Shown one piece after another: positions 27,786 to 56,580 of a DNA stretch of 64,000 nt (position 1 is its first letter; each line of letters begins with the position of its first letter). The position numbers and the translations under genes are program-made. This DNA is from Styela clava (taxonomy: Eukaryota; Chordata; Ascidiacea; Stolidobranchia; Styelidae). The stretch covers positions 7,284,001 to 7,348,000 of the forward strand of contig NC_135264.1 of NCBI RefSeq assembly GCF_964204865.1, read 5' to 3'. The notes beneath the pieces are model-generated. The model was not told the origin of the DNA. It worked only from the letters and a program-made list of their open reading frames with translations, and made no database searches.

Positions 27786-28894
27786 GCCTACAACCATACC
27801 ACGTTGAATGCACCCGATCTCGTTCGATCTCGGAAGTTAAGCAATGTCGGGCTCGGTTAGTACTTGCATGGGTGACCGACTGGGAATACCGAGTGTCGTA
27901 GGCTTTTCGTCGCCGTTTCATTCGATTTTGCTCTGTTTTTCAACAACTGCGAAATACAAATAGCCGAATAGACTACTACTTTATCGCCTACAACCATACC
28001 ACGTTGAATGCACCCGATCTCGTTCGATCTCGGAAATTAAGCAATGTCGGGCTCGGTTAGTACTTGCATGGGTGACCGGCTGGGAATACCAAGTGTCGTA
28101 GGCTTTACGTCGCCGTTTCATTCGATTTTGTTCTGTTTTCCAACAACTACGAAATACAAATAGACGAATAGACTACTACTTTGTTGCCTACAACCATACC
28201 ACGTTGAATGCACCCGATCTTGTTCGATCTCGGAAGTTAAGCAATGTCGGGCTTGGTTAGTACTTGCATGGGTGACCGGCTGGGAATACCGAGTGTCGTA
28301 GGCTTTTCGTCGCCGTTTCATTCGATTTTGCTCTGTTTTTTAACAACTGCGAAATACAAATAGCCGAATAGACTACTACTTTATCGCCTACAACCATACC
28401 ACGTTGAATGCACCCGATCTCGGAAGTTAAGCAATGTCGGGCTCGGTTAGTACTTGCATGGGTGACCGGCTGGGAATACCGAGTGTCGTAGAATTTTTTT
28501 TCGTCGCCGAGTGTCGTTTCATTCGATTTTGCTCTGTTTTCTAACAACTGCAAAATACAAATAGCCGAATAGACTACTACTTTATCGCCTACAACCATAC
28601 CATGTTGAATGCACCCGATCTCGGAAGTTAAGCAATGTCGGGCTCGGTTAGTACTTGCATGGGTGACCGGCTGGGAATATCGAGTGTCGTAGGCTTTTCG
28701 TCGCCGTTTCATTCGATTTCGCTCTGTTTTCCAACAACTGCGAAAAACAAATAGCCGAATAGACTACTACTTTATCGCCTACAACCATACCACGTTGAAT
28801 GCACCCGATCTCGTTCGATCTCGGAAGTTAAGCAATGTCGGGCTCGGTTAGTACTTGCATGGGTGACCGGCTGTGAATACCGAGTGTCGTAGGC
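25376..28894 (+). rRNA. 5S rRNA genes, array block 6 (last 18 copies)
   Basis: Starts are 25376, 25576, 25779, 25979, 26179, 26379, 26579, 26782, 26982, 27182, 27382, 27582, 27786, 27986, 28196, 28386, 28587 and 28777. Five-gene groups repeat with a 1,003-bp period. Copies 25576, 26579 and 27582 read TGTGGTAGGC at the 3' end and GTCGTGCTC internally. Copies 28386 and 28587 carry the 10-bp deletion, and the spacer after 28386 is irregular, with a stray GAGTGTCG near 28,509. The last gene, at 28,777, looks normal and is followed by a nearly complete spacer. Confidence 0.95.
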
Positions 28895-28977
28895 TTTTCG
28901 TCGCCGTTTCATTCGATTTTGCTCTGTTTTCCAACAACTGCGAAATACAAATAGCCGAATAGACTACTACTTTATCG
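28895..28977 (+). repeat. Last 5S spacer and junction with the satellite
   Basis: The spacer is intact through CTACTACTTTATCG, and the G at 28,977 would be the first base of another 5S gene. The sequence instead continues GAGTAATTTTGG, which in the satellite is preceded by TAACG (43,621-43,632). The two sides share only CG at 28,976-28,977, a junction with at most minimal homology. Confidence 0.85.
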
Positions 28978-29601
28978 GAGTAATTTTGGCCCGCAAACGA
29001 CAAAAGTTTGCCGATCTCTGGTTTAGACGTCAGAGCCAGTGAAGTTAAACAGTCATCCCATCACAAATCCGCCACCCACTGCCCTTTCCTATTCTCGATC
29101 CTCTGCCCTGTCTCCCTCGCCCAACTGCTCCACCTCCCTCAATCTTCCTATCCTCGACCCACCGCCCTATCTCCCTCAACCGTCCTATCCTCGATCCACT
29201 GTCCTATTTCCCATCCCCTTCAACCTCTTTATCCTCGACTCATTGCCATATCCCCTTCAACTTTTCTTTCCTTCATTCATTGCACAATCTGCCTCAAACT
29301 TCTCACCCTCGACCCACTGTCGGACCTCCATCAACTTACTTACCTTCGACCCGCGACGCTACACCACTCAGGCCCTAACCTAACGGCGCCACAATCACGA
29401 CTAGATCGTCAAAAAGAACTCTACTATCTTGCGACCAACCTCCATGTGTTATACTGGTCGAGTATGCAAATGAGATGATTCAATCGTACGTCGACAAAAC
29501 ATGATTGACGGCATTCGTAAATGTAGGCTGGAATCTCAATTGGTAATCAATAACCATATTGAGTGGCTTAAAAATGTGCTACTAATTAAGCTACTGGTGG
29601 C
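28978..29601 (+). repeat. Satellite foldback half-module: core and right arm
   Basis: The core (about 28,978-29,045) leads into a C/T-rich minisatellite (about 29,080-29,370), then the distal arm containing CGACTAGATCGTC and the terminal segment ending CTACTGGTGG. The matching left arm is missing because the module is cut at the 5S junction. The minisatellite repeats with a period of about 37 bp around the motif CCTATCCTCGACCCAC. Open frames here are Pro/Ser/Leu-rich artefacts of the repeat. Confidence 0.8.
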
Positions 29602-30174
29602 ATCGGGTTTGAGGTGACTGTTTTTAAAATTTCGAAAGGTCATTCGATATCGACATGCCTGAGTTCATTTTCAGAAACTCATTCAATGTCGCATGTATTT
29701 CCGTTCAAGACAAAACACTGAGGAAATAATAAAATATTTGCACGCTTAGTCATTTTCAACGAATGTTCTGCCATATTCTGTTGTTCATACAAATTTCTTT
29801 TACGAGACTGAGAAGGCTGAAAATCGAAAACAGTCAAAAATAGGAGTCGCTCAGTGAGTGTAATCCCTTCCAAACTATTTTAGAGTCATGAAATGTTTTG
29901 TCGTAGCTAGCGTTACCAACTGCCGTTTAATTCAGCGTATAGTCCCAAAATTGAGCTTATCTTATCTGCAACTTAATGAAGTTGCAAAGGACGAAGTTAG
30001 TACGTTATCTTTCTCATCGCATTTACTAGAAAATGTTGAAGAAAAAAACTACCAGAGCACTATTGCTTATTTCGGATCAGCATCATATTTGTCACGAGAC
30101 TGACGACATGGCCAATTATTAAGGGCATAAAACGGCCTGTTAAATTTAGAAAACCGTTATTCCCAACAAAAAAA
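29602..30174 (+). repeat. AT-rich middle segment of the satellite
   Basis: This single-copy-looking segment separates modules. It contains a perfect 7-bp hairpin, GCAACTT-AATG-AAGTTGC (about 29,968-29,985). A 71-codon frame at 29,888-30,103 is open only in this copy; relatives at about 31,481 and 33,810 have a stop where this one reads CTAGAAAATG. I do not recognise a protein and treat it as non-coding. Confidence 0.7.
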
Positions 30175-31191
30175 CCATCAGTAGCCCAATTAGTGAAACA
30201 TTTTTAAACTGCCAATTAAGGTTATTGTTTATTAATATTTGAGATTCCAGTCTACATATACGAACGCTGTCAATCATGTTTTGTCGAAGTACGATTGAAT
30301 CATCTCATTGGCATACACGACCAGTATAACCCATGGAAGTTGGTCACAAGATAGTAAAGTTCAGTGTGGGGATCGGGTCGTGAATAAAGCGCCGTTAGGT
30401 CAGGTACCGAATAGTATAGCACCGTAGATCAAAGTAAGTTGTGGCAGATAGGGGAGTGGGTCTGAGGATAGCTAGGTTGAGGGAGATAGGACAGTAGGTC
30501 GAAAAGAGAGAGGTTGAGGGAGATAAAGCGGTGGTTCGAGAATGTGAAAGTTGGGGAGAAAGAGCAGAGGGTCTAGGAAAGTTGAGGAAGGTCGGGCAGT
30601 GTGTCATGGAGATAGGGCAGTGGGTCGAGGACAGTTTTAAGTGTTTAACGGAGTACTTTTGGCACGCAAACGACAAAAGTTTGCCGACCTCGGGTTTAGA
30701 CTTCAGAGCCAGTGAAGTTACTGCCCTTTCTCCCTCAACCTTCCTATCCTCGACCCACCGCCCTATCTCCCTCAACCGTCCTATCCTCGATCCACTGTCC
30801 TATTTCGCCCAAACTTCCTATCCCCTTTATCCTCGATTCATTGCCATATCTCCCTCAACTTTTCTTTCCTCTATCCACTGCACTATCCGCCTCAAATTAT
30901 CCACCCTCGACCCACTATCCGATCTCCATCAAGTTACTTACCTTCGACGCTAAACCACTCAGCCTCTAACCTAACGGCGCTACAATCACGACTAGATCGT
31001 CAAAAAGAACTCTACTATTTTGCGACCAACCTCCATGTGTTATACTGGTCGAGTATGCCAATGAGATGATTCAATCGTACGTCGACAAAACATGATTGAC
31101 GGCATTCGTAAATGTAGGCTGGAATCTCAATTGGTAATCAATAACCATAATGAGTGGCTCAAAAATGTGCTACTAATTAAGCTACTGGTGG
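30175..31191 (+). repeat. Complete foldback module
   Basis: The left arm (about 30,175-30,645) starts CCATCAGTAGCCC and passes TTGAGATTCCAG, GATTGAATCATCTCATTGGC and AACCCATGGAAGTTGGTC into a G/A-rich minisatellite built on GTTGAGGGAGATAGG. The core is about 30,646-30,718. The right arm (about 30,719-31,191) is the reverse complement in reverse order, ending GGAATCTCAA and CTACTGGTGG. Terminal inverted repeats of over 400 bp with internal tandem repeats are the hallmark of foldback transposons, but no transposase is present and mobility is unproven. Confidence 0.75.
30640..30720 (+). other. Module core with two short hairpins
   Basis: The symmetry centre between the two arms holds GCAAAC-GACAAAA-GTTTGC and then ACTTCA-GAGCCAG-TGAAGT, each a perfect 6-bp stem with a 7-base loop. 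The core is conserved in all modules (near 28,995, 32,428, 34,605, 36,320, 42,610, 43,640 and their duplicates). In some modules the first stem follows AATTTTGG (28,982-28,989), which resembles an Sm-binding site; most others read ACTTTTGG. Confidence 0.65.
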
Positions 31192-31937
31192 CATCGGGTT
31201 TGAGGTGACTGTTTTTAAAATTTCGAAAGGTCATTCGATATCGACATGCCTGAGTTCATTTTCAGAAACTCATTCAATGTCGCTTGTATTTCCGTTCAAG
31301 ACAAAACACTGAGGAAATAATGAAATATTTGCACGCTTAGTCATTTTCAACGAATGTTCTGCCATATTCTGTTGTACATACAAATTTCTTTTACGTGACT
31401 GAGAAGGCTGAAAAATCAAAAACAGTCAAAAATATGAGTCGCTCAGTGAGTGTAATCCCTTCCAAACTATTTTAGAGCCATGAAATGTTTTGTCGTAGCT
31501 AGCGTTACCAACTGCCCTTTAATTCAGCGTATAGTCCCAAAATTGAGCTTATCTTATCTGCAACTTAATGAAGTTGCAAAGGACGCAGTTAGTACGTTAT
31601 CTTTGGAATCGCATTTACTATAAAATGATGAAGAAAAATACTACCAGAGCACTATTGAATCATCTCATTGGCATACACGACCAGTATAACCCATGGAAGT
31701 TGGTCACAAGATGGTAAATTCAGTGTCGCGATCGGGTCGTGAATAAAGCGCCGCGTATTTAGTACGTTATCTTTGGCATCGCTTTTACTATAAAATGTTG
31801 AAGAAAAATACTACCAGAGCACTATTGCTTATTTCGGATCAGCATCATATTTGTCACGAGACTGACGACATGGCCAATTATTAAGGGCATAAAACGGCCT
31901 GTTAAATTTAGAAAACCGTTATTCCCAACAAAAAAAC
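31192..31937 (+). repeat. Middle segment with an internal rearrangement
   Basis: This follows the usual middle segment until about 31,654, where CACTATTGAATCATCTC joins the middle segment to a left-arm fragment. That fragment runs through AACCCATGGAAGTTGGTC to GCGCCGCGTA, and at about 31,757 the sequence returns to the middle segment. About 100 bp of left arm is therefore embedded out of place. The duplicate is at about 45,840-46,584. Confidence 0.7.
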
Positions 31938-32949
31938 CATCAGTAGCCCAATTAGTGAAACATTTTTAAACTGCCAATTAAGGTTATTGTTTATTAATAT
32001 TTGAGATTCCAGCCTACATATACGAATGCTGTCAATCATGTTTTGTCGAAGTACGATTGAATCATCTCATGGGCATACACGAAAAGTATAACCCATGGAA
32101 GTTGGTCACAAGATAGTAAAGTTCAGTGTGGCGATCGGGTCGTGAATAAAGCGCCGTTAGGTCAGGTACCGAATAGTATAGCACCGTAGGTCAAAGTAAG
32201 TTGTGGCAGATAGGGGAGTGGGTCTGAGGATAGCTAGGTTGAGGGAGATAGGACAGAAAGGAGAGAGGTTGAGGGAGATAAAGCGGTGGTTCGAGAATGT
32301 GAAAGTTGGGGAGAAAGAGCAGAGGGTCGAGGATAGGAAAGTTGAGGGAGGTCGGGCAGTGTGTCATGGAGATAGGGCAGTGGGTCGAGGACAGTTTTAA
32401 GTGTTTAACGGAGTACTTTTGGCACGCAAACGACAAAAGTTTGCCGACCTCGTGGGTAGACTTCAGAGCCAGTGAGGTGCTGCCCTTTCTCCCTCAACCT
32501 CCCGCCCTATCTCCTTCAACCGTCCTATCCTCGATCCACTGTCCTATTTCCCCCAAACTTGCTATCCCCTTCAACCTCTTTCCTCGAATCATTGCCATAT
32601 TTCCCTCAACTTTTCTTTCCTCTATACACTGCACTATCTGCCTCAAATTTCCTACCCTCGACCCACTTTCTGATCTCCATCAAGTTACTTATTGTCGACC
32701 TACGACGCTACACCACTCAGACCCTAACCTAACGGCGCTACAATCACGACTAGATCGTCAAAACGAACTCTACTATCTTGCGACCAACCTCCATGTGTTA
32801 TACTGGTCGAGTATGCCAATGAGATGATTCAATCGTACGTCGACAAAACAAGATTAACGGCATTCGTAAATGTAGGCTGGAATCTCAATTGGTAATCAAT
32901 AACCATAATGAGTGGCTTAAAAATGTGCTACTAATTAAGCTACTAGTGG
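31938..32949 (+). repeat. Foldback module
   Basis: The left arm is about 31,938-32,400, the core about 32,405-32,475 and the right arm about 32,476-32,949. The G/A-rich arm has lost part of one 37-bp repeat near 32,258 (GGACAGAAAGGAGAG). The C/T-rich arm is shortened near 32,500-32,590. The copies at 46,585-47,597 share these deletions. Confidence 0.75.
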
Positions 32950-33521
32950 CCTCGGGTTTGAGGTGACCGTTTTTGAATTTTCGAAAGGTCATTCGATATC
33001 GACATGCCTGAGTTCATTTTCAGAAACTCATTCAATGTCAATGTCATTCAATGCCTCAACCTTCCTATCCTCGACCCACCGCCCTATCTCCCTCAACCGT
33101 CCTATCCTCGATCCACTGTCCTATTTCGCCCAAACTTCCTATCCCCTTCAACCTCTTTATCCTCGATTCATTGCCATATCTCCCTCAACTTTTCTTTCCT
33201 CTATCCACTGCACTATCCGCCTCAAATTATCCACCCTCGACCCACTATCCGATCTCCATCAAGTTACTTACCTTCACCGCTATACCACTCAGCCTCTAAC
33301 CTAACGGCGCTACAATCACGACTAGATCGTCAAAATGAACTCTACTATCTTGCGACCAACCTCCATGTGTTATACTGGTCGAGTATGCCAATGAGATGAT
33401 TCAATCGTACGTCGACAAAACAAGATTAACGGCATTCGTAAATGTAGGCTGGAATCTCAATTGGTAATCAATAACCATAATGAGTGGCTTAAAAATGTGC
33501 TACTAATTAAGCTACTGGTGG
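32950..33521 (+). repeat. Recombined right-arm fragment
   Basis: About 90 bp of middle segment ends at TCAATGTCAATGTCATTCAA (about 33,031-33,050) and joins the C/T-rich minisatellite directly, with no left arm or core. The right arm then completes normally. This is a module reduced by deletion or unequal exchange. It is repeated at about 47,598-48,169. Confidence 0.7.
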
Positions 33522-34104
33522 CCTCGGGTTTGAGGTGACCGTTTTTAAAATTTCGAAAGGTCATTCGATATCGACATGCCTGAGTTCATTTTCAGAAACT
33601 CATTCAATGTCGCTTGTATTTCCGTTCAAGACAAAACGATGATGAAATAATAAAATATTTGCACGCTTAGTCATTTTCAACGAATGTTCTGCCATATTCT
33701 GTTGTACATACAAATTTCTTTTACGTGACTGAGAAGGCTGAAAAGTCAAAAACAGTCAAAAATATAAGTCGCTCAGTGAGTGTAATCCCTTCCAAACTAT
33801 TTTAGAGCCATGAAATGTTTTGTCGTAGCTAGCGTTACCAACTGCCCTTTAATTCAGCGTATAGTCCCAAAATTGAGCTTATCTTATCTGCAACTTAATG
33901 AAGTTGCAAAGGACGCAGTTAGTACGTTATCTTTGGCATCGCTTTTACTATAAAATGTTGAAAAAAAATACTTTATACCGACCAGAGCACTATTGCTTAT
34001 TTCGGATCAGCATCATATCTGTCACAAGACTCAAGACATGCCAATTATTGAGGGCATAAAACGGGCTGCTAAAATTTAGAAAACTGTTATTCTCAACAAA
34101 AAAA
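33522..34104 (+). repeat. AT-rich middle segment
   Basis: This is a standard middle segment with small differences, such as AAAACGATGATG at about 33,635 and a short insertion (TTTATACCG) near 33,972. No gene is seen in it. Confidence 0.7.
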
Positions 34105-35141
34105 CCATCAGTAGCCCAATTAGTAAAACATTTTTAAACTGCCAATTAAGGTTATTGTTTATTATTTGAGATTCCAGCCTACATATACGAATGCTGTCAA
34201 TCATGTTTTGTCGAAGTACGATTGAATCATCTCATTGGCATACACGACCAGTATAACCCATGGAAGTTGGTCACAAGATAGTAAAGTTCAGTGTGGCGAT
34301 CGGGTCGTGATTAAAGCGCCGTTAGGTCAGGTACCGAATAGTATAGCACCGTAGGTCAAAGATAAGTAAGTTGTGGCAGATAGGGGAGTGGGTCTGAGGA
34401 TAGCTAGGTTGAGGGAGATAGGACAGTAAGTCGAAAAGAGAGAGGTTGAGGGAGATAAAGCGGTGGTTCGAGAATGTGAAAGTTGGGGAGAAAGAGCAGA
34501 GGGTCGAGGATAGGAAAATTGAGGGAGGTCGGGCAGTGTGTCATGGAGATAGGGCAGTGGGTCGAGGACAGTTTTAAGTGTTTAACGGAGTACTTTTGGA
34601 ACGCAAACGACAAAAGTTTGCCGACCTCGGGTTTAGACTTCATCAGAGCCAGTGAAGTTGCCCTTTATCCTTCAACCTTCCTATCCTCGACCCACCGCCC
34701 TATCTCCCTCAACCGTCCTATCCTCGATCCACTGTCCTATTTCGCCCAAACTTCCTATCCCCTTCAACCTCTTTATCCTCCACTCATTGCCATATCTCCC
34801 TCAACTTTTCTTTAATCTATCCACTGCACTATCTGCCTTAAATGTCCCACCCTCGACCCAGTTTCCGATCTCCATCAAGTTACTTACCTTCGATCTACGA
34901 CGCTATACCACTCGGCCATAACCTAACGGTGCTGCAATCACGACTAGATCGTCAAAAAGAACTCCACCATCTTGCAACCAACTTCCATGTGTCATACTGG
35001 TCGAGTATGCCAATGAGATGATTCAATCGTACGTCGACAAAACATGATTGACGGCATTCGTAAATGTAGGCTGGAATCTCAATTGGTAATCAATAACCAT
35101 AATGAGTGGCTTAAAAATGTGCTACTACATAAGCTACTGAT
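34105..35141 (+). repeat. Foldback module
   Basis: The left arm is about 34,105-34,575, the core about 34,580-34,655 and the right arm about 34,656-35,141. The first distal sequence of the left arm is shortened by a few bases (TTTATTATTTGAG), and the right terminus reads CTACATAAGCTACTGATGG rather than CTAATTAAGCTACTGGTGG. It is repeated at 48,753-49,789. Confidence 0.75.
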
Positions 35142-35725
35142 GGCGTCGGGTTTGAGGTGATTGTTTTAATTTTGAAATGCCATTCGATATCGACATACCT
35201 GAGTTCGTTTTCCGAAACTCATTCAATGTCGCTTTTATTTCCGTTCAAGGCAAAAAGATGAGGAAATAATTAAATATTTGCACGCGTACTCATTTTCAAC
35301 GAATGTTCTGCCATATTCTGTTGTGTATACAAATTTCTTGTTCGTTACTGAGGAGACTGAAAAGTCAAAAACAGTCAAAAATATAAGTCGCTCAGTGAGT
35401 GTAATCCCTTCCAAACTATTTTAGAGCCATGAAATGTTTTGTCGTAGCTAGCGTTGCCAACTTCCCTTTAATTCAGCGCATAGTCTCAAAATTGAGCTTA
35501 TCTTATTTGCAACTTAATAATGAAGTTGAAAAGGACGCAGTTATTACGTAATCTTTGGCATCGCTTTTACTATAAAATGTTGAAGAAAAATACTTATACG
35601 GACCAGAACACTATTGCTTATTTCGGATCAGCATCATATTTGTCACGAGACTGACGACATGGCCAATTATTAAGGGCATAAAACGTCCTATTAAAATTTA
35701 GAAATCTGTTATTCCCAACAAAAAA
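35142..35725 (+). repeat. AT-rich middle segment
   Basis: This is a more divergent middle segment, with GTCGCTTTTATTTCC, AAAAGATGAGG and CTTGTTCGTTACTG. It matches 49,790-50,373 and, less closely, 60,500-61,079. No gene is seen. Confidence 0.7.
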
Positions 35726-36913
35726 CCATCAGTAGCCTAATTAGTAAAACATTTTTCAACTGCCAATTAAGGTTATTGTTTAATATTTGAGATTCCAGCC
35801 TACATATACGAATGCTGTCAATCATGTTTTGTCGACGTACGATTGAATCATCTCATTGGCATACACGGACAGTATAACCCATGGAAGTTGGTCGCAAGAT
35901 AGTATAGTTCAGTGTGGCGATCAAGTCGTGAATAAAGCGCCGTTAGGTCAGGTATCGAATAGTATGCCACCGTAGGTCAAAGATAGGTAAGTTGTGGCAG
36001 ATAAGGCAGTGGGTCCAAGGATAGGTAGGTTGAGGGAGATAGGACAGTAGGTCGAAAAGAGAGAGGTTGAGGGAGATGAAGCGGTAGTTCAAGGTTGTGA
36101 ATGTTGTGGAGATAGAGCAGTGGGTCGAGGATAGGTAGGTGGCGTAGTGGGCCGAGGATAGGATGTTTGAGGGAGCTAGGGCAGTCGGTTGAGGATAGGA
36201 AAGTTGAAGGAGGTCGGGCAGTAGGTCGAGTATAGATAGGTAAGTAAGTAGATGGAGGTAGGGCAAGTTGGTCGAGGACGGTTTTAAGTGTTCTTTCTTT
36301 AACGGAGTAACTTTGGCCCGCAAACGACAAAAGTTTGCCGACCTCTGGTTTAGACGTCAGAGCCAGTGAAGTTAAACAGTCACACAAATCCGCCACCCAC
36401 TGCCCTTTCCTATTCTCGATCCTCTGCCCTGTCTCCCTCGCCCAACTGCTCCACCTCCCTCAACCTTCCTATCCTCGACCCAACGCCCTATCTTCCTCAA
36501 CCGTCCTATCCTCGATCCACTGTTCTATTCCCATCCCCTTCAACCTCTTTATCCTCGACTCATTGCCATAGCTCCTTCAACGTTTCTTTCCTCTATCCAC
36601 TGCACTATCCGCCTCAAATTATCCACCCTCGACCCACTATCCGATCTCCATCAAGTTACTTACCTTCAACGCTATACCACTCAGCCTCTAACCTAACGGC
36701 GCTACAATCACGACTAGATCGTCAAAAAGAACTCTACTATTTTGCGACCAACCTCCATGTGTTATACTGGTCGAGTATGCCAATGAGATGATTCAATCGT
36801 ACGTCGACAAAACATGATTGACGGCATTCGTAAATGTAGGCTGGAATCTCAATTGGTAATCAATAACCATAATGAGTGGCTTAAAAATGTGCTACTAATT
36901 AAGCTACTGGTGG
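35726..36913 (+). repeat. Foldback module with the longest minisatellite arm
   Basis: The G/A-rich left arm (about 35,985-36,285) holds more 37-bp repeats than other modules. The core is at about 36,300-36,370. The right arm begins with CCTCTGCCCTGTCTCC and CTCGCCCAACTGC, a subfamily also found at 29,098, 43,748, 51,070, 58,395 and 61,777. It is repeated at 50,374-51,561. Confidence 0.75.
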
Positions 36914-37637
36914 CATCGGGTTTGAGGTGACTGTTTTTAAAATTTCGAAAGGTCATTCGATATCGACATGCCTGAGTTCATTTTCAGAAACTCATTCAAT
37001 GTCGCTTGTATTTCCGTTCAAGACAAAACACTGAGGAAATAATAAAATATTTGCAGTCATTTTCAACGAATGTTCTGCCATATTCTGTTGTATATACAAA
37101 TTTCTTTTACGTGACTGAGAGGGCTGAAAAATCAAAAACAGTCAAAAATATGAGTCGCTCAGTGAGTGTAATCCCTTCCAAACTATTTTAGAGCTAGCGT
37201 TACCAACTGCCCTTTACATCAGCGTATAGTCCCAAAATTGAGCTTATCTCATCTGCAACTTAATGAAGTTGCAAAGGACGCAGTTAGTACGTTATCTTTG
37301 GCATCGCATTTACTATAAACTGTTGAAGAAAAATACCACCAGAGCACTATTGCTTATTTCGGATCAGCATCATATTTGTCACGAGACTGACGATATGGCC
37401 AATTATTAAGGGCATAAAACGGCCTGTTGAAATTTAGAAAACCGTTATTCCCAACAAAAAAACCATCAGTAGCCCAATTAGTAAAACATTTTTAAACTGC
37501 CAATTAAGGTTATTGTTTAATATTTGAGATTCCAGCCTACATATACGAATGCTGTCAATCATGTTTTGTCGAAGTACGATTGAATCATCTCATTGGCATA
37601 CACGACCAGTATAACCCATGGAAGTTGGTCACAAGAT
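36914..37637 (+). repeat. Middle segment and start of a left arm, interrupted by the retrotransposon
   Basis: The middle segment lacks about 10 bp (ATTTGCAGTCATTTTC) and the ATGAAATG stretch near 37,193. The left arm begins at about 37,463 and runs to GGTCACAAGAT at 37,637, where the retrotransposon begins. The same two small deletions appear at 62,420 and 62,555, identifying the unoccupied relative of this unit. Confidence 0.75.
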
Positions 37638-38054
37638 AACAGCCAAGGAATCACTTTGGACTCGCAAGAACCAGAAATTCAGCTTGCCCAAAACGTGCCT
37701 CCAACACAATGGGGAGAGGATAGGACGTTCTTATGTACGCCGCCTTTCCAGCCTAACACAGATAATGTTTTCGAAGCCAGAGAAATTGAAGACGGAGGTC
37801 CAATGGCATACTTATTTGCCCCAAGGTCACAGCAAACTTCTCGGAAGAAGGCTATTGCCAACAAGAATGTGACTCTGTTAAAATCGTCGAACCCAGTAGC
37901 TTCTCTAAACCGACCAAGAAGTCACAGCGACCTGAGAGGGAGACCGGATTCACCATCACAAAAAAGAATGAATACCAGTCCAGAAAAACCCGACTCCAGC
38001 GAAAGGAAAAAAACCAAACCGGTTAAAAAAGCAGTCAACACCGAAAAGAAATAA
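37638..38054 (+). pseudogene. ORF1 C-terminal fragment, copy 1
   Basis: About 138 codons of open frame remain, ending in TAA at 38,052-38,054. The frame continues upstream into satellite sequence only by chance, so the real start has been lost by 5' truncation. The remaining part is hydrophilic, with a Ser/Pro/Arg-rich stretch (RPRSHSDLRGRPDSPSQKR) and a Lys-rich tail. This resembles the basic tail that follows the nucleic-acid-binding domains of ORF1 proteins in L1/Tx1 elements. No zinc knuckle or RRM is left in the fragment. Identification rests mainly on its position, with 9 bases between its stop and the ORF2 ATG. Confidence 0.7.
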
Positions 38055-38063
38055 ACTTACTAG

Positions 38064-41000
38064 ATGCGGTTGTGCTCCATCAACGTAAACGGATTTAGTA
38101 TACACAGGGCAGAAATAGAAACTCTTATCAAAAACTAAAAACCGGATATCTTACTCATACAGGAAATGCACAAAATTAATATAGTTCCAATAGAGTCATG
38201 GTCCAAAAATCTCCATTACAAATTATATCACAAACGCTATCTCATAACAGGTCGGACATCAAATTCTTTAAATCGGGTACTGGTATCCTAGTTCACGAAA
38301 AAACTGAAAATACTGTTATCAACTATGAAATCATAACTGAAAACAGGGTTGATCTGCTACGTATAAAACTCGACGAAACACCTTTGAACATCGTGAACGT
38401 TTATGTCCCATCAGGAAGACAAGGTGCTCAAACCACCTTTTTTCGAGATTTATCGGAAAAATTGACTGAAAAGTTGCAATGTATGCAGCATCTTGTGATG
38501 TGCGGTGATTTTAACTCTATATTGGACAAAAAGGATGCTTATTTTGTAAAGGAATTTACTCTCTCCAAAGCCGAAAAAATTTTTGACGCCTTCCTTACGG
38601 AACATGATATTATCGACCCATTTAGATATAGATACCCGGATAAAAAAGTGTTTACTATGAAAATCCATAAACAATCTCGACGTATTGATCGAATCCATCA
38701 CTCAAGAAACTTGGATCCAATAGTCAAAAAATTTCAATATTATCCAAATCTCGTTTCGGACCACATGCTATTCTCATTCCTTGAAATTGGGGAGTACACA
38801 CAACCTCGGTGGGGGAAAGGTGCATGGCGGAACAACGTGTCGCATTACGCCGACGATATTTATATTGAAGTCATAACCCATAAGTTTGAAGAGTGCCTTG
38901 ATTTCATGGGCCACTTCGTTACAGCCCAACAGTGGGGGGACTACTTTAAACACCAAATTAAAAGTGAGACAATCAACTTCTCGATATATAAAGCAAAATA
39001 TAAAAGGGACCAAAAACTTCAAATTGAACAAGAATTAGCGGAGCTGATTAGAAACGGAAATGATTCGGACACCAATAAAATTTATGAATTAAAATCAAAA
39101 TTACAGGCCATACAGAAACAAAAAGTTGCTTTTACCAAAACAATAGCTCATATCGAAGCCACTGAGGAGGAAGAAAAACCATCCCGCTTCTTCTATGATA
39201 AAATCAGATACAGAAAAAACAAATGCACTCTACGAAAGCTTGTCCTCCCCAATGGGGAAACTACAACAGACAAAGAAACCATCTTAGAAACAACTCATGA
39301 ATTTTATAGCGACCTCTGGGGAATGAAATCAAACACAGATGAAATACAACAGCGACACCTAGTTGACCTAATGAGTGAACCTAAAATCATACATGAAGTT
39401 TCCGAAAATCTGGACCTACCTATAACTGAAGAGGAAATTTATAATACTATCAAACAAATGGACATTATAAATCACCTGGTTTTGACGGTCTAGCAAAAGA
39501 GTTTTACATCACTTTTTGGCCTTTAATAAAATTACAGTTCACCCAATTGATGAATAATATCTTGATATCCGGACAAATACCGAACAGTTGGCGCTACGCA
39601 AGGATTATTCTGTGTCATAAAAAAGGGGAAAGGACGATGCTAAAAAACTGGCGTCCAATTGCGAACCTTAACGTCGATTACAAAATCATGACAAAAATTC
39701 TGTCCAACCGCCTTAAAATCGCTTTGGACGGGGTAATCTCAAGTACTCAAAAATCGACTTTACCCGGAAGATCAATACAGGATATTCATAACAACCTGGA
39801 TAGCGTAATTCGTTACTCTCACGAAAAAAATATTCCGTCATGCATCATGACAGTCGACCAACTCAAGGCATTCGATACGGTTGACCACCAGTTTCTTTTC
39901 AATCTACTGGAAACGGTGGGAGGGACCGAAAAAACAACCAATCTGATAAAAGGCCTATACTCCAATATCGTAAGCATCGTTGATGTTAATGGTGCATTCA
40001 CCGAGGAAATCCGGATCCTGCGTGGGATACGACAAGGATGCCCCCTCAGCATGCTCCTTTATACGTTGAATGCGGAACCGCTGGCCAGGCTTGTTCTCGC
40101 AAATAAACGTATCAAGGGAGTTATGCTGGGGAGGAAGGAAGAAAAATTAGAACAATATGCTGCCGACGCCACTTTTATAACATGCTCCCCTTTTTCACTG
40201 GAACACATTTTCAATGAATTATGGAGATACTCAGAAGCAACAGGACAGAGGGTGAACCCGGATAAAACTGAGATTTTGTGCATTACATACCCAGCTGAAA
40301 CTTCATTAAACTTAACGCAATACAAAAGATTTGGGAAAAATAAAATAAAAATTCTGGGAGTTTACTTCGGTCGAGGATCTATTGAAACTACATGGACGGA
40401 AAAGTGTGCAGATGTCAGGCAAATCCTTAACTGCACTAAACCAAGAATGCTGTCCTGGAGGGGTAGAATGACTGTTCTAAACTCCCTGGCCCTCTCGTTG
40501 ATTAATTACAGTGCTAGAGTTCACATCATTCTTTTGTCATTCATCCATCAGCTACAATCCGACCTTTTTAGGTACCTCTGGTTTCCGGAAACTATTGAGG
40601 TGGTGTCCAGAAAAAAATTGCTACACCACATTTCAAATGGAGGCATCAATATGCTTGACGTCAAACTGAAGGCACAAGCATGCTTGGTATACAAGATCAG
40701 CCAGCTATGTGCCATATCATCCCCGACCGAATTCTGGCACCATGAAGCCCTGTTTTCATTAGGATCAAGAATAATGTCACTCAACAAATCACTGTATTCC
40801 AACTCTAGGCCTCACTCAATCAAAGTTAATCTCCACTGGCGACATCTACTTAATATTATTCATGTATTAGATTTCACTCCGGACGAATGGACCACAACAT
40901 CCTTAAAGATAATATATAACAGGCTAAAATTAAAGACATACGATCAACCAAAATCAGACCTAACACGGGACTGGTATGCGATACATCTCTTGGACCGAAA

Positions 41001-41550
41001 TTTGAAACATCATTTTACTAACATCGAGCGTCAAACATCATATCTAATTGTCATGGATGGATTTTTGTTTGGCCATAGGAAATGGCGGTATGGAATGATT
41101 CGTCGAGATGTAAACAAGCGTCCAATGAAACTCAATTGCAAACTCTGTGCAAATAACCAGGATAAAACAAGTCACATTTTTCTCGAATGTCCGGAGTACC
41201 AGAATCTACATGAAGAACTAAGATTGACAATGGAAAGGGTCTGTGGCATGCAGCTGGATATATCCCTACAATCAATTTTTGAAAACTCATACACAGGGGT
41301 AAATAGTTTGGCAATCCTGAAAATGTACAACATATTCAAGTTGGAAATCATCTCACTCAAACATAATCTGGACAGGGATAACCGATACATAAATCCAGAA
41401 GATTCATCTATACTTCTCGAAACCGTCTTCCGTAATTTCAAAACCTGGATGTACATAATCAAGGATCGATATGGATCAACAGACCTCTACAATTTGTCGA
41501 ACGAGTGGGAGAATGCATTGGATGGGATCATACAGGATGCACGACCTTAA
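38064..41550 (+). pseudogene. ORF2 (endonuclease-reverse transcriptase), copy 1, broken
   Basis: The endonuclease begins at ATG 38,064 with the NVNG motif, meets a TAA stop at 38,136-38,138, continues as PDILLIQEMH, then shifts frame between about 38,200 and 38,270. From 38,198 a 431-codon frame carries the rest of the endonuclease (CGDFNS, RRIDRI, SDH). One A is missing at about 39,464, just before the KSPGFDG motif, and the frame ends at 39,493. The RT continues in the other frame to 41,550 with KAFD, RQGCPLS and a CCHC knuckle. The catalytic box reads YAAD rather than YADD (GCC at 40,162-40,164), removing the first metal-binding Asp. The copy is inactive for at least four independent reasons. 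Confidence 0.9.
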
Positions 41551-41919
41551 TTGGCTGAGAAGTAAGACGCACAATCTGGAACTTTCTAATCAGTCACCAC
41601 AAATGGTAGCCAACATCAGTCGTATTAGCCAACCAGGCCTGACCTACACCAATCGCGGGATAGTATATAAATGGTTTTGACGACTATCCATGTACTACTA
41701 CTACGGATGACCGATACGTCCGAAAATTACTGGTTTTGGTTTTTATAAAACATAAGCAATACCATCTCGAATTGCGGATATGATGTTAGGAAGCTTACCA
41801 TACTAGTTTGGTAAAGACGATCCCTTTATCAAGGGATAATGAGTCTAATACTTCCGTTGGCATTACTGGGCATGAAGGCATTGGGCTGGATTCCAGTAAT
41901 GTCATCCTGATCCGTTAAG
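41551..41919 (+). other. 3' UTR of retrotransposon copy 1
   Basis: About 370 bases separate the ORF2 stop from the poly(A). Three perfect short inverted repeats lie close together near the end: TTACCA/TGGTAA (41,795-41,814), ATCCCTT-TATC-AAGGGAT (41,820-41,837) and CATTACTGG/CCAGTAATG (41,861-41,901). A structured 3' end is a common recognition signal for the element's own reverse transcriptase. I see no AATAAA before the A-run. Confidence 0.75.
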
Positions 41920-41933
41920 AAAAAAAAAAAAAA
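41920..41933 (+). other. Poly(A) tail of retrotransposon copy 1
   Basis: Fourteen A residues follow CCGTTAAG and abut satellite sequence GTGAATAAAGCG. This marks the 3' end of the element and its + orientation. Confidence 0.9.
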
Positions 41934-42131
41934 GTGAATAAAGCGCCGCGTAGTTAGTACGTTATCTTTGGCATCGCTTTTACTATAAAAAGTTGAAGAA
42001 AAATACTACCAGAGCACTATTGCTTATTTCGGATCAGCATCATATTTGTCACGAGACTGACGACATGGCCAATTATTAAGGGCATAAAACGGCCCGTTAA
42101 AATTTAGAAAACCGTTATTCCCAACAAAGAA
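41934..42131 (+). repeat. Satellite resuming after the retrotransposon
   Basis: The flank begins GTGAATAAAGCGCCGCGTAG and enters the middle segment at TTAGTACGTTATC. The GCGCCGCGTA junction matches the rearranged segment near 31,750 and the unoccupied site near 63,000, so it existed before the insertion. Confidence 0.8.
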
Positions 42132-43069
42132 CCATCAGTAGCCCAATTAGTAAAACATTTTTAAACTGCCAATTAGGGTTATTGTTTAATATTTGAGATT
42201 TCAGCCTACATATACGAATGCTGTCAATCATGTTTTGTCGAAGTACGATTGAATCATCTCATTGGCATACACGACCAGTATAACCCAGTAAAGTTCAGTG
42301 TGGCGATCGGGTCGTGAAAATAGCGCCGTTAGGTCAGGTATCGAATAGTATGGCACCGTAGGTCAAAGATAGGTAAGTTGTGGCAGATAAGGCAGTGGGT
42401 CCGAGGATAGGTAGGTTGAGGGAGATAGTACAGTAAGTCGAAAAAAGAGAGGTTGAGGGAGATAAAGCGGTGGTTCGAGAATGTGAAAGTTGGGGAGAAA
42501 GAGCAGAGGGTCGAGGATAGGAAAGTTGAGGGAGGTCGGCCAGTGTGTCATGGAGATAGGGCAGTGGGTCGAGGACAGTTTTCAGTGTTCAACGGAGTAC
42601 TTTTGGCACGCAAACGACAAAAGTTTGCCGACCTCGGGTTTTGACTTAAGAGCCAGTGAAGTTACTGCCCTATCTCCCTCAACCGTCCAATCCTCGATCC
42701 ACTGTCCTATTTTGCCCAATCTTCCTATCCCCTTCGACCTCTTTATCCTCGACTCATTACCATATCTCCCTCAACTTTTCTTTCCTCTATCCACTGGACT
42801 ATCTGCCTCAAATTTCCCACCCTCGACCCACTTTCCGATCTCCATCAAGTTACTTACCTTCGACCTACGACGCTATACCACTCAGCCCCTAACCTAACGG
42901 CGCTACAATCACGACTAGATCGTCAAAAAGAACTCCACCGTCTTGCAACCAACTTCCATGTGTTATACTGGTCGAGTATGCCAATGAGATGATTCAAACG
43001 TACGTCGACAAAACATGATTGACGGCATTCGTAAATGTAGGCTGGAATCTCAATTGGTAATCAATAACC
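42132..43069 (+). repeat. Foldback module, first half of a long palindrome
   Basis: The left arm is about 42,132-42,590 (missing the CATGGAAGTTGGTCACAAG stretch near 42,287), the core about 42,595-42,660 and the right arm about 42,661-43,069. The right arm stops at GTGGCTTAAAAA (43,088) and meets the next left arm with no middle segment between. Confidence 0.75.
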
Positions 43070-43260
43070 ATAATGAGTGGCTTAAAAAGGTTATTGTTTA
43101 ATAATTGAGATACCAGCCTACATATACGAATGCTGTCAATCATGTTTTGTCGACGTACGATTGAATCATCTCATTGGCATACACGACCAGTATAACCCAT
43201 GGAAGTTGGTCGCAAGATAGTAAAGTTCGGTGTGGCGATCGGGTTGTGAATAAAGCGCCG
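42900..43260 (+). repeat. Head-to-head inverted repeat with a 19-base centre
   Basis: The right arm of one module runs directly into the left arm of the next. CAATAACC (43,062-43,069) and GGTTATTG (43,089-43,096) bound a 19-base loop, and the complementarity extends outward through TGTAGGCTGG/CCAGCCTACA, ACATGATTGAC/GTCAATCATGT and ACTGGTCG/CGACCAGT to GGCGCT/AGCGCC. This could extrude as a large cruciform. The duplicate centre is at 57,709-57,743. Confidence 0.8.
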
Positions 43261-44248
43261 TTAGATCAGGTATCGAATAGTATGGCACCGTAGGTGAAAG
43301 ATAGGTAAGTTGCGGCAGATAAGGCAGTGGGTCCAAGGATAGGTAGGTTGAGTGAGATAGGACAGTAGGTCGAAAAGAGAGAGGTTGAGGGAGATAAAGC
43401 GGTAGTTCGAGGATGTGAAAGTTGGGGAGATAGAGCAGTGGGTTGAGGATAGGTAGGTGGCGTAGTGGGCCGAGGATAGGATGTTTGAGGGAGCTAGGGC
43501 AGTTGGTTGAGAATAGGAAAGTTGGAGGAGGTCGGCCAGTAGGTCGAGTATAGATAGGCAAGTAAGTAGATGGAGGTAGGGCAGTGGGTCGAGGACGGAC
43601 GGTTTTAAGTGTTCTTTCTTTAACGGAGTAATTTTGGCCCGCAAACGACAAAAGTTTGCCGACCTCTGGTTTAGACGTCAGAGCCAGTGAAGTTAAACAG
43701 TCATCCCATCACAAATTCGCCACCCACTGCCCTTTCCTATTCTCGATCCTCTGCCCTGTCTCCCTCGCCCAACTGCTCCACCTCCCTCAACCTTACTATC
43801 CTCGACCCACCGCCCTATCTCCCTCAACCGTCCTATCCCCGATCCACTGTCCTATTTCCCATCCCCTTCAACCTCTTTATCCTCGACTCATTGCCATAGC
43901 TCCTTCAACTTTTCTTTCCTTCCTTCACTGCACTATCTGCTTCAAACTTCTCACCCTCGACCCACTGTCGGACCTCCATCAACTTACTTACCTTCGACCC
44001 GCGACGCTACACCACTCAGCCCCTAACCTAACGGCGCTACAATCACGACTAGATCGTCAAAAAGAACTCTACTATCTTGCGACCAACCTCCATGTGTTAT
44101 ACTGGTCGAGTATGCCAATGAGATGATTCAATCGTACGTCGACAAAACATGATTGACGGCATTCGTAAATGTAGGCTGGAATCTCAATTGGTAATCAATA
44201 ACCATAATGAGTGGCTTAAAAATGTGCTACTAATTAAGCTACTGGTGG
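43089..44248 (+). repeat. Foldback module linking the two higher-order units
   Basis: The left arm is about 43,089-43,615 with a long G/A-rich minisatellite, the core about 43,618-43,690 with the AATTTTGG variant, and the right arm about 43,691-44,248. Its core and right arm are the counterpart of the half-module at 28,978 that adjoins the 5S array. Confidence 0.75.
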
Positions 44249-44826
44249 CATCGGGTTTGAGGTGACTGTTTTTAAAATTTCGAAAGGTCATTCGATATCG
44301 ACATGCCTGAGTTCATTTTCAGAAACTCATTCAATGTCGCTTGTATTTCCGTTCAAGACAAAACACTGAGGAAATAATAAAATATTTGCACGCTTAGTAA
44401 TTTTCAACGAATGTTCTGCCATATTCTGTTGTACATACAAATTTCTTTTACGTGACTGAGAAGGCTGAAAAGTCAAAAACAGTCAAAAATATGAGTCGCT
44501 CAGTGAGTGTAATCTCTTCCAAACTATTTTAGAGCCATGAAATGTTTTGTCGTAGCTAGCGTTACCAACTGCCCTTTAATTCAGCGTATAGTCCCAAAAT
44601 TGAGCTTATCTTATCTGCAACTTAATGAAGTTGCAAAGGACGCAGTTAGTACGTTATCTTTGGCATCGCTTTTACTATAAAATGTTGAAGAAAAATACTA
44701 CCAGAGCACTATCGCTTATTTCGGACCAGAATCATATTTGTCACGAGACTGACGACATGGCCAATAATTAGGGGCAAAAAACGGCTTGTTAAAATTTAGA
44801 ATACCGTTATTCCCAACAAAAAAAAG
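44249..44826 (+). repeat. AT-rich middle segment
   Basis: Counterpart of 29,602-30,174, but with the subfamily variants GGGGCAAAAAACGG and AAAAAGCATCAG that also mark 59,410-59,475 and 63,135-63,195. No gene is seen. Confidence 0.7.
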
Positions 44827-47800
44827 CATCAGTAGCCCAATTAGTAAAACATTTTTAAACTGCTAATTAAGGTTATTGTTTAATATTTGAGATTCCAGCC
44901 TACATATACGAATGCTGTCAATCATGTTTTGTCGAAGTACGATTGAATCATCTCATTGGCATACACGACCAGTATAAACCATGAAAGTTGGTCACAAGAT
45001 AGTAAAGTTCAGTGTGGCGATCGGGTTGTGAATAAAGCGCCGTTAGGTCAGGTACCGAATAGTATAGCACCGTAGGCAAAAGTAAGTTGTGGCAGATAGG
45101 GGAGTGGGTCTGAGGATAGCTAGGTTGAGGGAGATAGGACAGTAAGTCGAAAAGAGAGAGGTTGAGGGAGATAAAGCGGTGGTTCGAGAATGTGAAAGTT
45201 GGGGAGAAAGAGCAGAGGGTCTAGGAAAGTTGAGGAAGGTCGGGCAGTGTGTCATGGAGATAGGGCAGTGGGTCGAGGACAGTTTTAAGTGTTTAACGGA
45301 GTACTTTTGGCACGCAAACGACAAAAGTTTGCCGACCTCGGGTTTAGACTTCAGAGCCAGTGAAGTTACTGCCCTTTCTCCCTCAACCTTCCTATCCTCA
45401 ACCCACCGCCCTATCTCCCTCAACCGTCCTATCCTCGATCCACTGTCCTATTTCGCCCAAACTTCCTATCCCCTTTATCCTCGATTCATTGCCATATCTC
45501 CCTCAACTTTTCTTTCCTCTATCCACTGCACTATCCGCCTCAAATTATCCACCCTCGACCCACTATCCGATCTCCATCAAGTTACTTACCTTCGACGCTA
45601 AACCACTCAGCCTCTAACCTAACGGCGCTACAATCACGACTAGATCGTCAAAAAGAACTCTACTATTTTGCGACCAACCTCCATGTGTTATACTGGTCGA
45701 GTATGCCAATGAGATGATTCAATCGTACGTCGACAAAACATGATTGACGGCATTCGTAAATGTAGGCTGGAATCTCAATTGGTAATCAATAACCATAATG
45801 AGTGGCTCAAAAATGTGCTACTAATTAAGCTACTGGTGGCATCGGGTTTGAGGTGACTGTTTTTAAAATTTCGAAAGGTCATTCGATATCGACATGCCTG
45901 AGTTCATTTTCAGAAACTCATTCAATGTCGCTTGTATTTCCGTTCAAGACAAAACACTGAGGAAATAATGAAATATTTGCACGCTTAGTCATTTTCAACG
46001 AATGTTCTGCCATATTCTGTTGTACATACAAATTTCTTTTACGTGACTGAGAAGGCTGAAAAATCAAAAACAGTCAAAAATATGAGTCGCTCAGTGAGTG
46101 TAATCCCTTCCAAACTATTTTAGAGCCATGAAATGTTTTGTCGTAGCTAGCGTTACCAACTGCCCTTTAATTCAGCGTATAGTCCCAAAATTGAGCTTAT
46201 CTTATCTGCAACTTAATGAAGTTGCAAAGGACGCAGTTAGTACGTTATCTTTGGAATCGCATTTACTATAAAATGATGAAGAAAAATACTACCAGAGCAC
46301 TATTGAATCATCTCATTGGCATACACGACCAGTATAACCCATGGAAGTTGGTCACAAGATGGTAAATTCAGTGTCGCGATCGGGTCGTGAATAAAGCGCC
46401 GCGTATTTAGTACGTTATCTTTGGCATCGCTTTTACTATAAAATGTTGAAGAAAAATACTACCAGAGCACTATCGCTTATTTCGGATCAGCATCATATTT
46501 GTCACGAGACTGACGACATGGCCAATTATTAAGGGCATAAAACGGCCTGTTAAATTTAGAAAACCGTTATTCCCAACAAAAAAACCATCAGTAGCCCAAT
46601 TAGTGAAACATTTTTAAACTGCCAATTAAGGTTATTGTTTATTAATATTTGAGATTCCAGCCTACATATACGAATGCTGTCAATCATGTTTTGTCGAAGT
46701 ACGATTGAATCATCTCATGGGCATACACGAAAAGTATAACCCATGGAAGTTGGTCACAAGATAGTAAAGTTCAGTGTGGCGATCGGGTCGTGAATAAAGC
46801 GCCGTTAGGTCAGGTACCGAATAGTATAGCACCGTAGGTCAAAGTAAGTTGTGGCAGATAGGGGAGTGGGTCTGAGGATAGCTAGGTTGAGGGAGATAGG
46901 ACAGAAAGGAGAGAGGTTGAGGGAGATAAAGCGGTGGTTCGAGAATGTGAAAGTTGGGGAGAAAGAGCAGAGGGTCGAGGATAGGAAAGTTGAGGGAGGT
47001 CGGGCAGTGTGTCATGGAGATAGGGCAGTGGGTCGAGGACAGTTTTAAGTGTTTAACGGAGTACTTTTGGCACGCAAACGACAAAAGTTTGCCGACCTCG
47101 TGGGTAGACTTCAGAGCCAGTGAGGTGCTGCCCTTTCTCCCTCAACCTCCCGCCCTATCTCCTTCAACCGTCCTATCCTCGATCCACTGTCCTATTTCCC
47201 CCAAACTTGCTATCCCCTTCAACCTCTTTCCTCGAATCATTGCCATATTTCCCTCAACTTTTCTTTCCTCTATACACTGCACTATCTGCCTCAAATTTCC
47301 TACCCTCGACCCACTTTCTGATCTCCATCAAGTTACTTATTGTCGACCTACGACGCTACACCACTCAGACCCTAACCTAACGGCGCTACAATCACGACTA
47401 GATCGTCAAAACGAACTCTACTATCTTGCGACCAACCTCCATGTGTTATACTGGTCGAGTATGCCAATGAGATGATTCAATCGTACGTCGACAAAACATG
47501 ATTGACGGCATTCGTAAATGTAGGCTGGAATCTCAATTGGTAATCAATAACCATAATGAGTGGCTTAAAAATGTGCTACTAATTAAGCTACTAGTGGCCT
47601 CGGGTTTGAGGTGACCGTTTTTGAATTTTCGAAAGGTCATTCGATATCGACATGCCTGAGTTCATTTTCAGAAACTCATTCAATGTCAATGTCATTCAAT
47701 GCCTCAACCTTCCTATCCTCGACCCACCGCCCTATCTCCCTCAACCGTCCTATCCTCGATCCACTGTCCTATTTCGCCCAAACTTCCTATCCCCTTCAAC

Positions 47801-50800: not shown

Positions 50801-52285
50801 CGAGGATAGGATGTTTGAGGGAGCTAGGGCAGTCGGTTGAGGATAGGAAAGTTGAAGGAGGTCGGGCAGTAGGTCGAGTATAGATAGGTAAGTAAGTAGA
50901 TGGAGGTAGGGCAAGTTGGTCGAGGACGGTTTTAAGTGTTCTTTCTTTAACGGAGTAACTTTGGCCCGCAAACGACAAAAGTTTGCCGACCTCTGGTTTA
51001 GACGTCAGAGCCAGTGAAGTTAAACAGTCACACAAATCCGCCACCCACTGCCCTTTCCTATTCTCGATCCTCTGCCCTGTCTCCCTCGCCCAACTGCTCC
51101 ACCTCCCTCAACCTTCCTATCCTCGACCCAACGCCCTATCTTCCTCAACCGTCCTATCCTCGATCCACTGTTCTATTCCCATCCCCTTCAACCTCTTTAT
51201 CCTCGACTCATTGCCATAGCTCCTTCAACGTTTCTTTCCTCTATCCACTGCACTATCCGCCTCAAATTATCCACCCTCGACCCACTATCCGATCTCCATC
51301 AAGTTACTTACCTTCAACGCTATACCACTCAGCCTCTAACCTAACGGCGCTACAATCACGACTAGATCGTCAAAAAGAACTCTACTATTTTGCGACCAAC
51401 CTCCATGTGTTATACTGGTCGAGTATGCCAATGAGATGATTCAATCGTACGTCGACAAAACATGATTGACGGCATTCGTAAATGTAGGCTGGAATCTCAA
51501 TTGGTAATCAATAACCATAATGAGTGGCTTAAAAATGTGCTACTAATTAAGCTACTGGTGGCATCGGGTTTGAGGTGACTGTTTTTAAAATTTCGAAAGG
51601 TCATTCGATATCGACATGCCTGAGTTCATTTTCAGAAACTCATTCAATGTCGCTTGTATTTCCGTTCAAGACAAAACACTGAGGAAATAATAAAATATTT
51701 GCAGTCATTTTCAACGAATGTTCTGCCATATTCTGTTGTATATACAAATTTCTTTTACGTGACTGAGAGGGCTGAAAAATCAAAAACAGTCAAAAATATG
51801 AGTCGCTCAGTGAGTGTAATCCCTTCCAAACTATTTTAGAGCTAGCGTTACCAACTGCCCTTTACATCAGCGTATAGTCCCAAAATTGAGCTTATCTCAT
51901 CTGCAACTTAATGAAGTTGCAAAGGACGCAGTTAGTACGTTATCTTTGGCATCGCATTTACTATAAACTGTTGAAGAAAAATACCACCAGAGCACTATTG
52001 CTTATTTCGGATCAGCATCATATTTGTCACGAGACTGACGATATGGCCAATTATTAAGGGCATAAAACGGCCTGTTGAAATTTAGAAAACCGTTATTCCC
52101 AACAAAAAAACCATCAGTAGCCCAATTAGTAAAACATTTTTAAACTGCCAATTAAGGTTATTGTTTAATATTTGAGATTCCAGCCTACATATACGAATGC
52201 TGTCAATCATGTTTTGTCGAAGTACGATTGAATCATCTCATTGGCATACACGACCAGTATAACCCATGGAAGTTGGTCACAAGAT
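44827..52285 (+). repeat. Satellite part of the second higher-order unit, before the retrotransposon
   Basis: The modules are copies of those in the first unit: full module 44,827-45,840; rearranged middle segment 45,841-46,584; full module 46,585-47,597; right-arm fragment 47,598-48,169; middle segment 48,170-48,752; module 48,753-49,789; middle segment 49,790-50,373; module 50,374-51,561; middle segment 51,562-52,110; and the start of a left arm to 52,285. It holds only the Pro/Ser/Leu-rich frames produced by the minisatellite. Confidence 0.8.
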
Positions 52286-52702: not shown

Positions 52703-52711
52703 ACTTACTAG

Positions 52712-56567: not shown

Positions 56568-56580
56568 AAAAAAAAAAAAA

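Follow-up and report, generated by a model that had tools for sequence, protein, structure and literature searches.

The satellite that adjoins the 5S rDNA array in this part of the Styela clava genome is, in our judgement, most probably a transposon-derived satellite whose units grew from a larger scattered repeat, and not a foldback transposon. The analysis covered a window of 64,000 nt (contig C19, positions 7284001-7348000, of an assembly of 376.6 Mb in 379 contigs). We propose that the satellite unit is R-S-L, a spacer (S) between inverted arms (R and L), with a 37-bp minisatellite on the outer side of each arm. The initial annotation of the window had interpreted the inverted-repeat module at 30175-31191 as a foldback-like mobile element; the anatomy that it described is present, but the module appears to lie across the seam of two tandem units.

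The satellite consists of head-to-tail tandem units, each with a long internal dyad (Table 1). The exact core motif occurs 16 times in 28978-64000, every time on the + strand, in agreement with the original description of an ordered satellite. A higher-order repeat of 14,648 bp is present twice (28978-43625 and 43626-58272), and its two copies are 97.2-100% identical per kb. Homogenised arrays of the satellite are found at several chromosomal places, on C2, C3, C5, C13 and C19, with units that are 90.9-100% alike (mean 94.6%). The 5S array passes into the satellite within a core, at 28960-28990, where a short common stretch, TTTA(T/A)CG, was recognized by eye, as expected for an illegitimate junction. 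Near this junction, two 5S copies (28386-28494 and 28587-28695) measure 109 bases against 119, and score 79.9 and 83.1 bits in Rfam. Nothing besides 5S reached Rfam gathering scores in 26000-64000, and no tRNA genes were detected in 28978-64000.

Table 1. Positions of the features discussed, numbered from the first base of the window
Feature	Position	Strand	Basis or remark
5S rDNA tandem array, ~200-bp unit, adjoining the satellite	1-28977	+	TRF, 144.6 copies; Rfam 5S matches (searched from 26000 on)
Complex satellite of tandem R-S-L units, reaching the window end	28978-64000	+	self-BLAST, core motifs
Module of the initial annotation, read as one unit's left arm, seam and the next unit's right arm	30175-31191	+	self-BLAST, gapped scoring
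Left arm (L), including the outer part of the purine-rich minisatellite	30175-30525	+	self-BLAST
Left 37-bp degenerate minisatellite, 71% purine	30393-30630	+	period and composition
Core, interpreted as the seam between consecutive units	30631-30722	+	flank comparison
Core stretch matching the edge of the scattered copies' hAT-like element	30654-30692	+	limits by eye
Right 37-bp degenerate minisatellite, 26% purine	30723-30965	+	TRF, composition
Right arm (R), inverted relative to L	30847-31191	-	self-BLAST
Spacer S of the module's unit, with an extra partial left-arm duplication at 31649-31750	31192-31941	+	
Short spacer palindrome	31559-31578	.	folding against shuffles
LINE copy 1, within a left arm	37638-41933	+	poly(A) joined to GTGAATAAAGCGCC at 41934
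LINE copy 2, longest open frame 52828-56199	52286-56580	+	same insertion, duplicated with the higher-order repeat
Unoccupied counterpart of the LINE-bearing partial left arm	62880-63060	+	

When 28978-64000 was compared with itself by BLAST, an inverted pair was recovered at the outer limits originally claimed for the module (30175-30525 against 30847-31191, 78% identity). Gapped scoring extended this self-alignment, which had been proposed as a check, to 15 of 15 testable cores (15 of the 16, the first being left out at the array edge), all with inverted arms of 76-82% identity and scores of 79.5-266; each core outscored its own 30 shuffles, and the top shuffle for any core reached 63. The degenerate repeats of about 37 bp, purine-rich on the left and pyrimidine-rich on the right, were also described correctly: 37 bp was the best period in all four minisatellite stretches measured, the purine contents are those in Table 1, and the GC skew within the module is +0.64 on the left and -0.72 on the right. 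The long terminal inverted repeats are indeed inverted arms, but they are not terminal, as similarity fades at their ends and peaks inside the arms. Identity to the arm consensus was 80% just inside the outer edge against 61-71% just outside, and weak similarity may continue beyond the outer ends (19 of 500 shuffles were as good in a local test; three anchored scorings gave 1/60, 0/60 and 60/60). The best-conserved 100 columns between the arms are internal, with 6 mismatches (13 of 10000 permutations). The core is conserved in that it recurs, but the two hairpins ascribed to it are unremarkable (z -1.27 and -1.19, equalled by 23 and 27 of 200 shuffles); the strongest hairpin among the four stretches folded was the spacer palindrome at 31559-31578 (z -2.35, 4 of 200 shuffles as good).

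Several candidate properties of the unit were rejected, found weak support or drew no matches. Frames of 110-180 aa running outward from the core were discarded, the open stretches of the minisatellites (80 and 77 codons) being equalled by 141 and 72 of 300 shuffles. An inverted-dimer reading of the entire unit, in which the spacer would hold a second centre of dyad symmetry, found weak support. A 24-base exact arm pattern matched neither viral contigs (0) nor prokaryote genomes (0), and the module had no match in plasmids.

In the region around a 28-bp box, the left and right arms within a module share 82-86% identity (14 modules paired), whereas each left arm is 96.7-100% identical to its best-matching other left arm, in a comparison that includes the higher-order duplicates. 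Because left arms are closer to other left arms than to their own right arm, the two arms of a module have not been homogenised with each other and are old and separate. Selective maintenance of the dyad, perhaps for a role at centromeres or in protein binding, might be considered in view of the inner arm block with its 6 mismatches in 100 columns, the exact box in 29 of 37 matches within the window and the arrays on several contigs, and the long dyads of Tribolium satellites are discussed as centromere-related in one report (PMC13081366). We regard such selection as quite improbable, given that the low diversity of the boxes from unit to unit is unexceptional (339 of 5000 randomly drawn window pairs were equally low), that the core hairpins do no better than shuffles and that the arm is interrupted by LINEs.

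The initial annotation had suggested searching the genome for isolated copies. With the module as query, 102 match rows were obtained on C19, C3, C2, C13 and C5 (best 40 of 1693 candidates), many of them one place counted on both strands. The exact arm box occurs 565 + 693 times genome-wide, with 0 occurrences of the reversed control. Among the approximately 100 box places listed, out of 1258, all three isolated box pairs were ordered right arm-left arm (R-S-L), a phase half a unit off the module. Eight loci (L041-L048) were fetched from the box search: L041, L042, L043, L044 (two units) and L046 (left end cut by the fetch) contain near-complete R-S-L matching the satellite consensus at 81-89%, and L045, L047 and L048 are partial. 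Two flank contexts were distinguished, a type-1 pair common to L041 and L044, and a type-2 pair common to L042, L043, L045 and L046, of which L048 has the right flank; L047 was left unassigned. Six more loci came from a spacer search (best 40 of 1206 candidates): L063 is type 1, L064 type 1 with type-2 parts, L065 and L067 are type 2, and L066 and L068 are satellite. No isolated copy in the L-core-R frame was present among the box places listed and the loci fetched. Scattered copies therefore exist, but the ones examined are in the R-S-L phase, within larger repeats or satellite, with no target duplication seen by eye at unit ends. Arm boxes are also dense on C1:12926669-13005540, and composite flank recurs every 3.8-4.1 kb on C3:7421238-7440982; these are further tandem arrays of related repeats.

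In the copies examined, the scattered R-S-L is an internal piece of larger repeats with reverse-transcriptase and RNase H remnants. A search with 233 bp from the left flank of type 2 returned 2204 first-look candidates, the best 40 of which were scored, on 12 contigs and at 96-100% identity. Composite copies on C1 (two), C9, C14 and C17 have long stretches in common, for the most part at 94-98% identity. Of the initial 21.1 kb of the C17 stretch, about 18.7 kb has a counterpart in at least one of the two C1 copies, with no single collinear block. One R-S-L lies in each of the C17, C14 and C9 copies, the C9 unit being short by about 110 bp. The composite contains an RNase H fragment (E 8.1e-9) and a reverse-transcriptase fragment slightly below the Pfam cut-off (E 1.7e-6), while a frame that we take to be gag-like from its features had no Pfam match. 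To the left of R-S-L, type-2 copies carry two inverted termini about 1.74 kb apart (L053, 2449 to 4184), which, from their terminus features, we presume to be the ends of a hAT-like element. Its short terminal inverted repeats are 75% identical (L053, 2442-2568 against 4191-4068), its putative target duplication is degenerate (CTCTAAGA against ATTTAGAA, 4 of 8 by eye), and no frame of at least 150 aa lies inside it in L053.

The scattered copies raise the question of whether the unit, taken in its R-S-L phase, could be a mobile element, foldback-type or other, that inserted into the composites, or the descendant of one. Arms inverted about a spacer and bearing minisatellites would suit such an element, and the two flank contexts are compatible with an R-S-L that once moved by itself. 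We nevertheless think it unlikely: the two contexts share ends only in part, the outermost bases of the unit are not inverted repeats of each other (by eye), and no target duplications were seen by eye at unit ends in the loci read. All 14 scattered or outlying loci fetched fall into these two contexts or satellite, or are fragments left unassigned, and a single exact pattern for an empty site (type 2 only) had 0 matches in the genome.

Three window cores were compared with the inner terminus of the hAT-like element and its neighbourhood, and matched at 73/80, 61/67 and 64/69 bases. Two of the three also matched the opposite flank (22/23 and 26/29 bases); the third, at the 5S junction, is without the opposite-flank part. 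The satellite core thus holds about 40 bp of the hAT-like element's edge, fused to the opposite flank, whereas the element is longer in scattered copies. Because the edge is fused to the other flank within the core, we read the core, on this sequence comparison, as a tandem-duplication seam between neighbouring R-S-L units, and the module at 30175-31191 would consequently straddle two units.

The seam bears directly on the possibility that the module is a foldback-like DNA transposon in the L-core-R frame, bounded by 30175 and 31191, and that its copies turned into an ordered satellite. Inverted arms with an internal minisatellite do recall foldback anatomy, and the seeding of a satellite by a foldback element has a published precedent (PMC4079207). 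Even so, we consider this reading extremely improbable, as the core holds another element's edge, the isolated copies are in the other phase, the arm ends are not sharp, the best-conserved arm block is internal and not terminal, and the window has no unit-encoded transposase frame. The longer, transposase-encoding version envisaged in the initial annotation was not found in the window, where the long coding sequence belongs to a LINE that has inserted into an arm.

A tree of 57 R-S-L sequences placed 49 satellite units (C2, C3, C5, C13 and C19) and 8 scattered units on either side of one split, with support of 0.89. The tree was rooted at its midpoint, with the window's higher-order duplicates dropped and units below the length cut-off left out, and such rooting means that by itself it gives no direction. 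The satellite units form two subfamilies, of 21 (support 0.99) and 28 units (0.66), each on several contigs. At one C19 locus (L013, C19:8469500-8479400), the two subfamilies alternate over six successive units, a dimeric higher-order pattern that differs from the 14.65-kb repeat of the window. If the satellite had come first, and a monomer opened at its seam had been captured by composite repeats, the same breakpoints would be predicted and the outcome would look similar, the truncated edge of the hAT-like element aside; in the tree, moreover, the satellite and the scattered units are reciprocal. This order of events seems distinctly unlikely to us, since scattered copies have more of the hAT-like element than the mere edge that the satellite keeps, and type-1 copies are without that edge.

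We therefore favour growth of the satellite from a scattered unit that would have come first. R-S-L exists in many scattered copies as an internal part of larger composites, and one of these, or a close relative, would have undergone a tandem duplication whose breakpoints lay immediately beyond the minisatellites. This duplication would have fused the edge of the neighbouring hAT-like element to the other flank and so produced the core. The unit may then have been amplified by unequal exchange or by circle-mediated re-insertion, followed by formation of higher-order repeats (in the window, the 14.65-kb repeat including the LINE), to give arrays that are now on at least five contigs. The arms also double as a landing site for a LINE of the L1 superfamily, at GTC|GTGA.

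The two LINE copies of the window agree at 4293 of the 4298 bases compared, in an alignment with 4 gap columns, and their near-identity in the two higher-order repeats indicates a single insertion. This LINE family (family 1) matched RVT_1 (E 2.4e-31), with LINE-1 ORF2 proteins as its best solved relatives, and Exo_endo_phos below threshold (E 3.6e-5, 24.1 bits against a cut-off of 24.5). By these matches, the window LINE can be assigned to the L1 superfamily, with a reverse transcriptase and, from the sub-threshold match, a putative L1-type endonuclease. Comparison of the occupied arm with its unoccupied equivalent at 62880-63060 indicated, by eye, the loss of 26 bp of target and no duplication. 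The existence of that unoccupied equivalent rules out the LINE as an autonomous form of the module.

A genome search with family 1 (best 40 of 166 candidates scored) yielded seven events, defined as copies at 98-100% identity with a readable 3' end. Four of the seven join poly(A) to GTGA at the same arm nucleotide, in the left arm in the window and in the right arm at C19 8.46 Mb, on C9 and on C1; three are off site (C4, C14 1.90 Mb and C14 1.687 Mb). A C17 copy of 89% identity likewise lies off the arm site, and including it would give 4/8. Two near-identical C16 copies (L026, without the LINE 3' end, and another that was not fetched) were left out of the count, as were the distant fragments L039 and L040, neither with the arm site. 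The chance of 4/7 at one site is 6.6e-19, a rough figure that assumes uniform insertion and 2204 units. Genome-wide, poly(A) followed by the arm site occurs at 4 places (the two window copies, C19 and C1) with 0 for the reversed control; the C9 junction is a variant that departs from this pattern. The C9 and C19 copies are flanked by satellite. Target duplications were read by eye as GTGATGGAAG on C9, GTGATTGT on C19 and GAGAAGCRAAGC on C14, and the target of the C14 copy ends in AAGCGC, as the arm site does (by eye).

A second LINE family, with 38% protein identity to family 1 over 518 aa, lies within a few bases of the same arm site on C3, C2 and C13, apparently as one amplified event. Its 3' ends were read in 6 of the 9 best copies, and one of four distinct events was at the arm site, the others being in the spacer, in minisatellite-like DNA (by eye) and elsewhere; an equal site preference of this family is therefore unsupported. 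A preference for the arm site, not a strict one (3/7 elsewhere), is well supported for family 1 only. The 5' ends of family 1 copies on C19 (8.458 Mb, L060 + L038) and C14 (1.908 Mb, L036 + L062) start with a spacer-like stretch, GAGGTGACTGTTTTTAAAATTT, which in the C14 copy matches consensus 611-637 (27 bp), though that copy sits outside the satellite. This satellite-derived stretch in both copies suggests transcripts that began in satellite DNA. Family 1 could equally well be or not be a target-preferring L1-superfamily lineage at home in the arms of satellite and composites, which enters either arm at the same nucleotide, possibly through recognition of the arm by its endonuclease, and has the satellite as its reservoir.

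Other junctions were noted during this survey. In L025 (C14:1687010-1687555), the LINE meets non-satellite DNA at GTGA, and a 5S-like minus-strand stretch lies nearby (by eye). In L012 (2500-2560), unknown DNA joins the satellite at AAGCGCCGTTAGG, a few bases from the LINE landing site. Five distant LINE-like fragments (L030-L034, on C8, C1, C9, C3 and C4) have a common sequence after the A-run, and 3/5 begin at the same query position; they probably form a single family of composite repeats, and on account of the common 3' flank they were not counted as insertions.

A transposon-derived satellite with a dyad monomer is a known kind. The 1061-bp satellite of Tribolium brevicornis, with inverted segments of about 470 bp, is called the most prominent reported, and this satellite and TmSat2 of T. 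madens resemble that of Styela in having monomers with hundreds of bases of inverted repeat (PMC13081366). Relative to what is described there, the Styela satellite differs in its 37-bp minisatellite arms, in the unit also being scattered in composites and in the transposon edge at the seam. The foldback element Tetris of Drosophila virilis resembles R-S-L as a dispersed repeat that has inverted arms with tandem repeats inside and that gave rise to satellite arrays; it has defined ends and target duplications of 8-10 bp, and what was amplified were its internal tandem repeats (PMC4079207). In Styela, by contrast, the whole R-S-L was amplified, and such ends and duplications were not found in the loci read. 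Inverted arms with internal tandem repeats are shared with foldback elements generally (FB, Galileo, TU and Tetris), but defined outer ends are not.

For the LINE, the closest parallel is the Tx1 group. In Xenopus, Tx1L sits inside the Tx1D repeat. Target-specific insertion is reported for the Tx1 group and, as with family 1, an L1-superfamily LINE is inserted repeatedly at one site of another repeat (PMC3747384). The target of family 1 differs in being either arm of an inverted-repeat satellite or composite, with 3/7 events off target. LINE targets named in a further source are rRNA, tRNA, spliced-leader and snRNA genes, microsatellites, telomeric repeats and other transposons (PMC8869645), and we found nothing recognisable as a satellite-specific LINE in the open-licence literature.

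The satellite of S. clava suggests that a dyad satellite can originate when an internal portion of a scattered composite is duplicated in tandem and the seam is kept in the monomers, an origin that contrasts with the multiplication of a foldback element. It also carries a caution, in that the most striking symmetric 'module' in a tandem array can be the junction of its units. LINE family 1 is a case, open to testing, of a non-LTR element with a preference for one nucleotide common to two inverted arms, and this site preference is the part of the finding most worth following.
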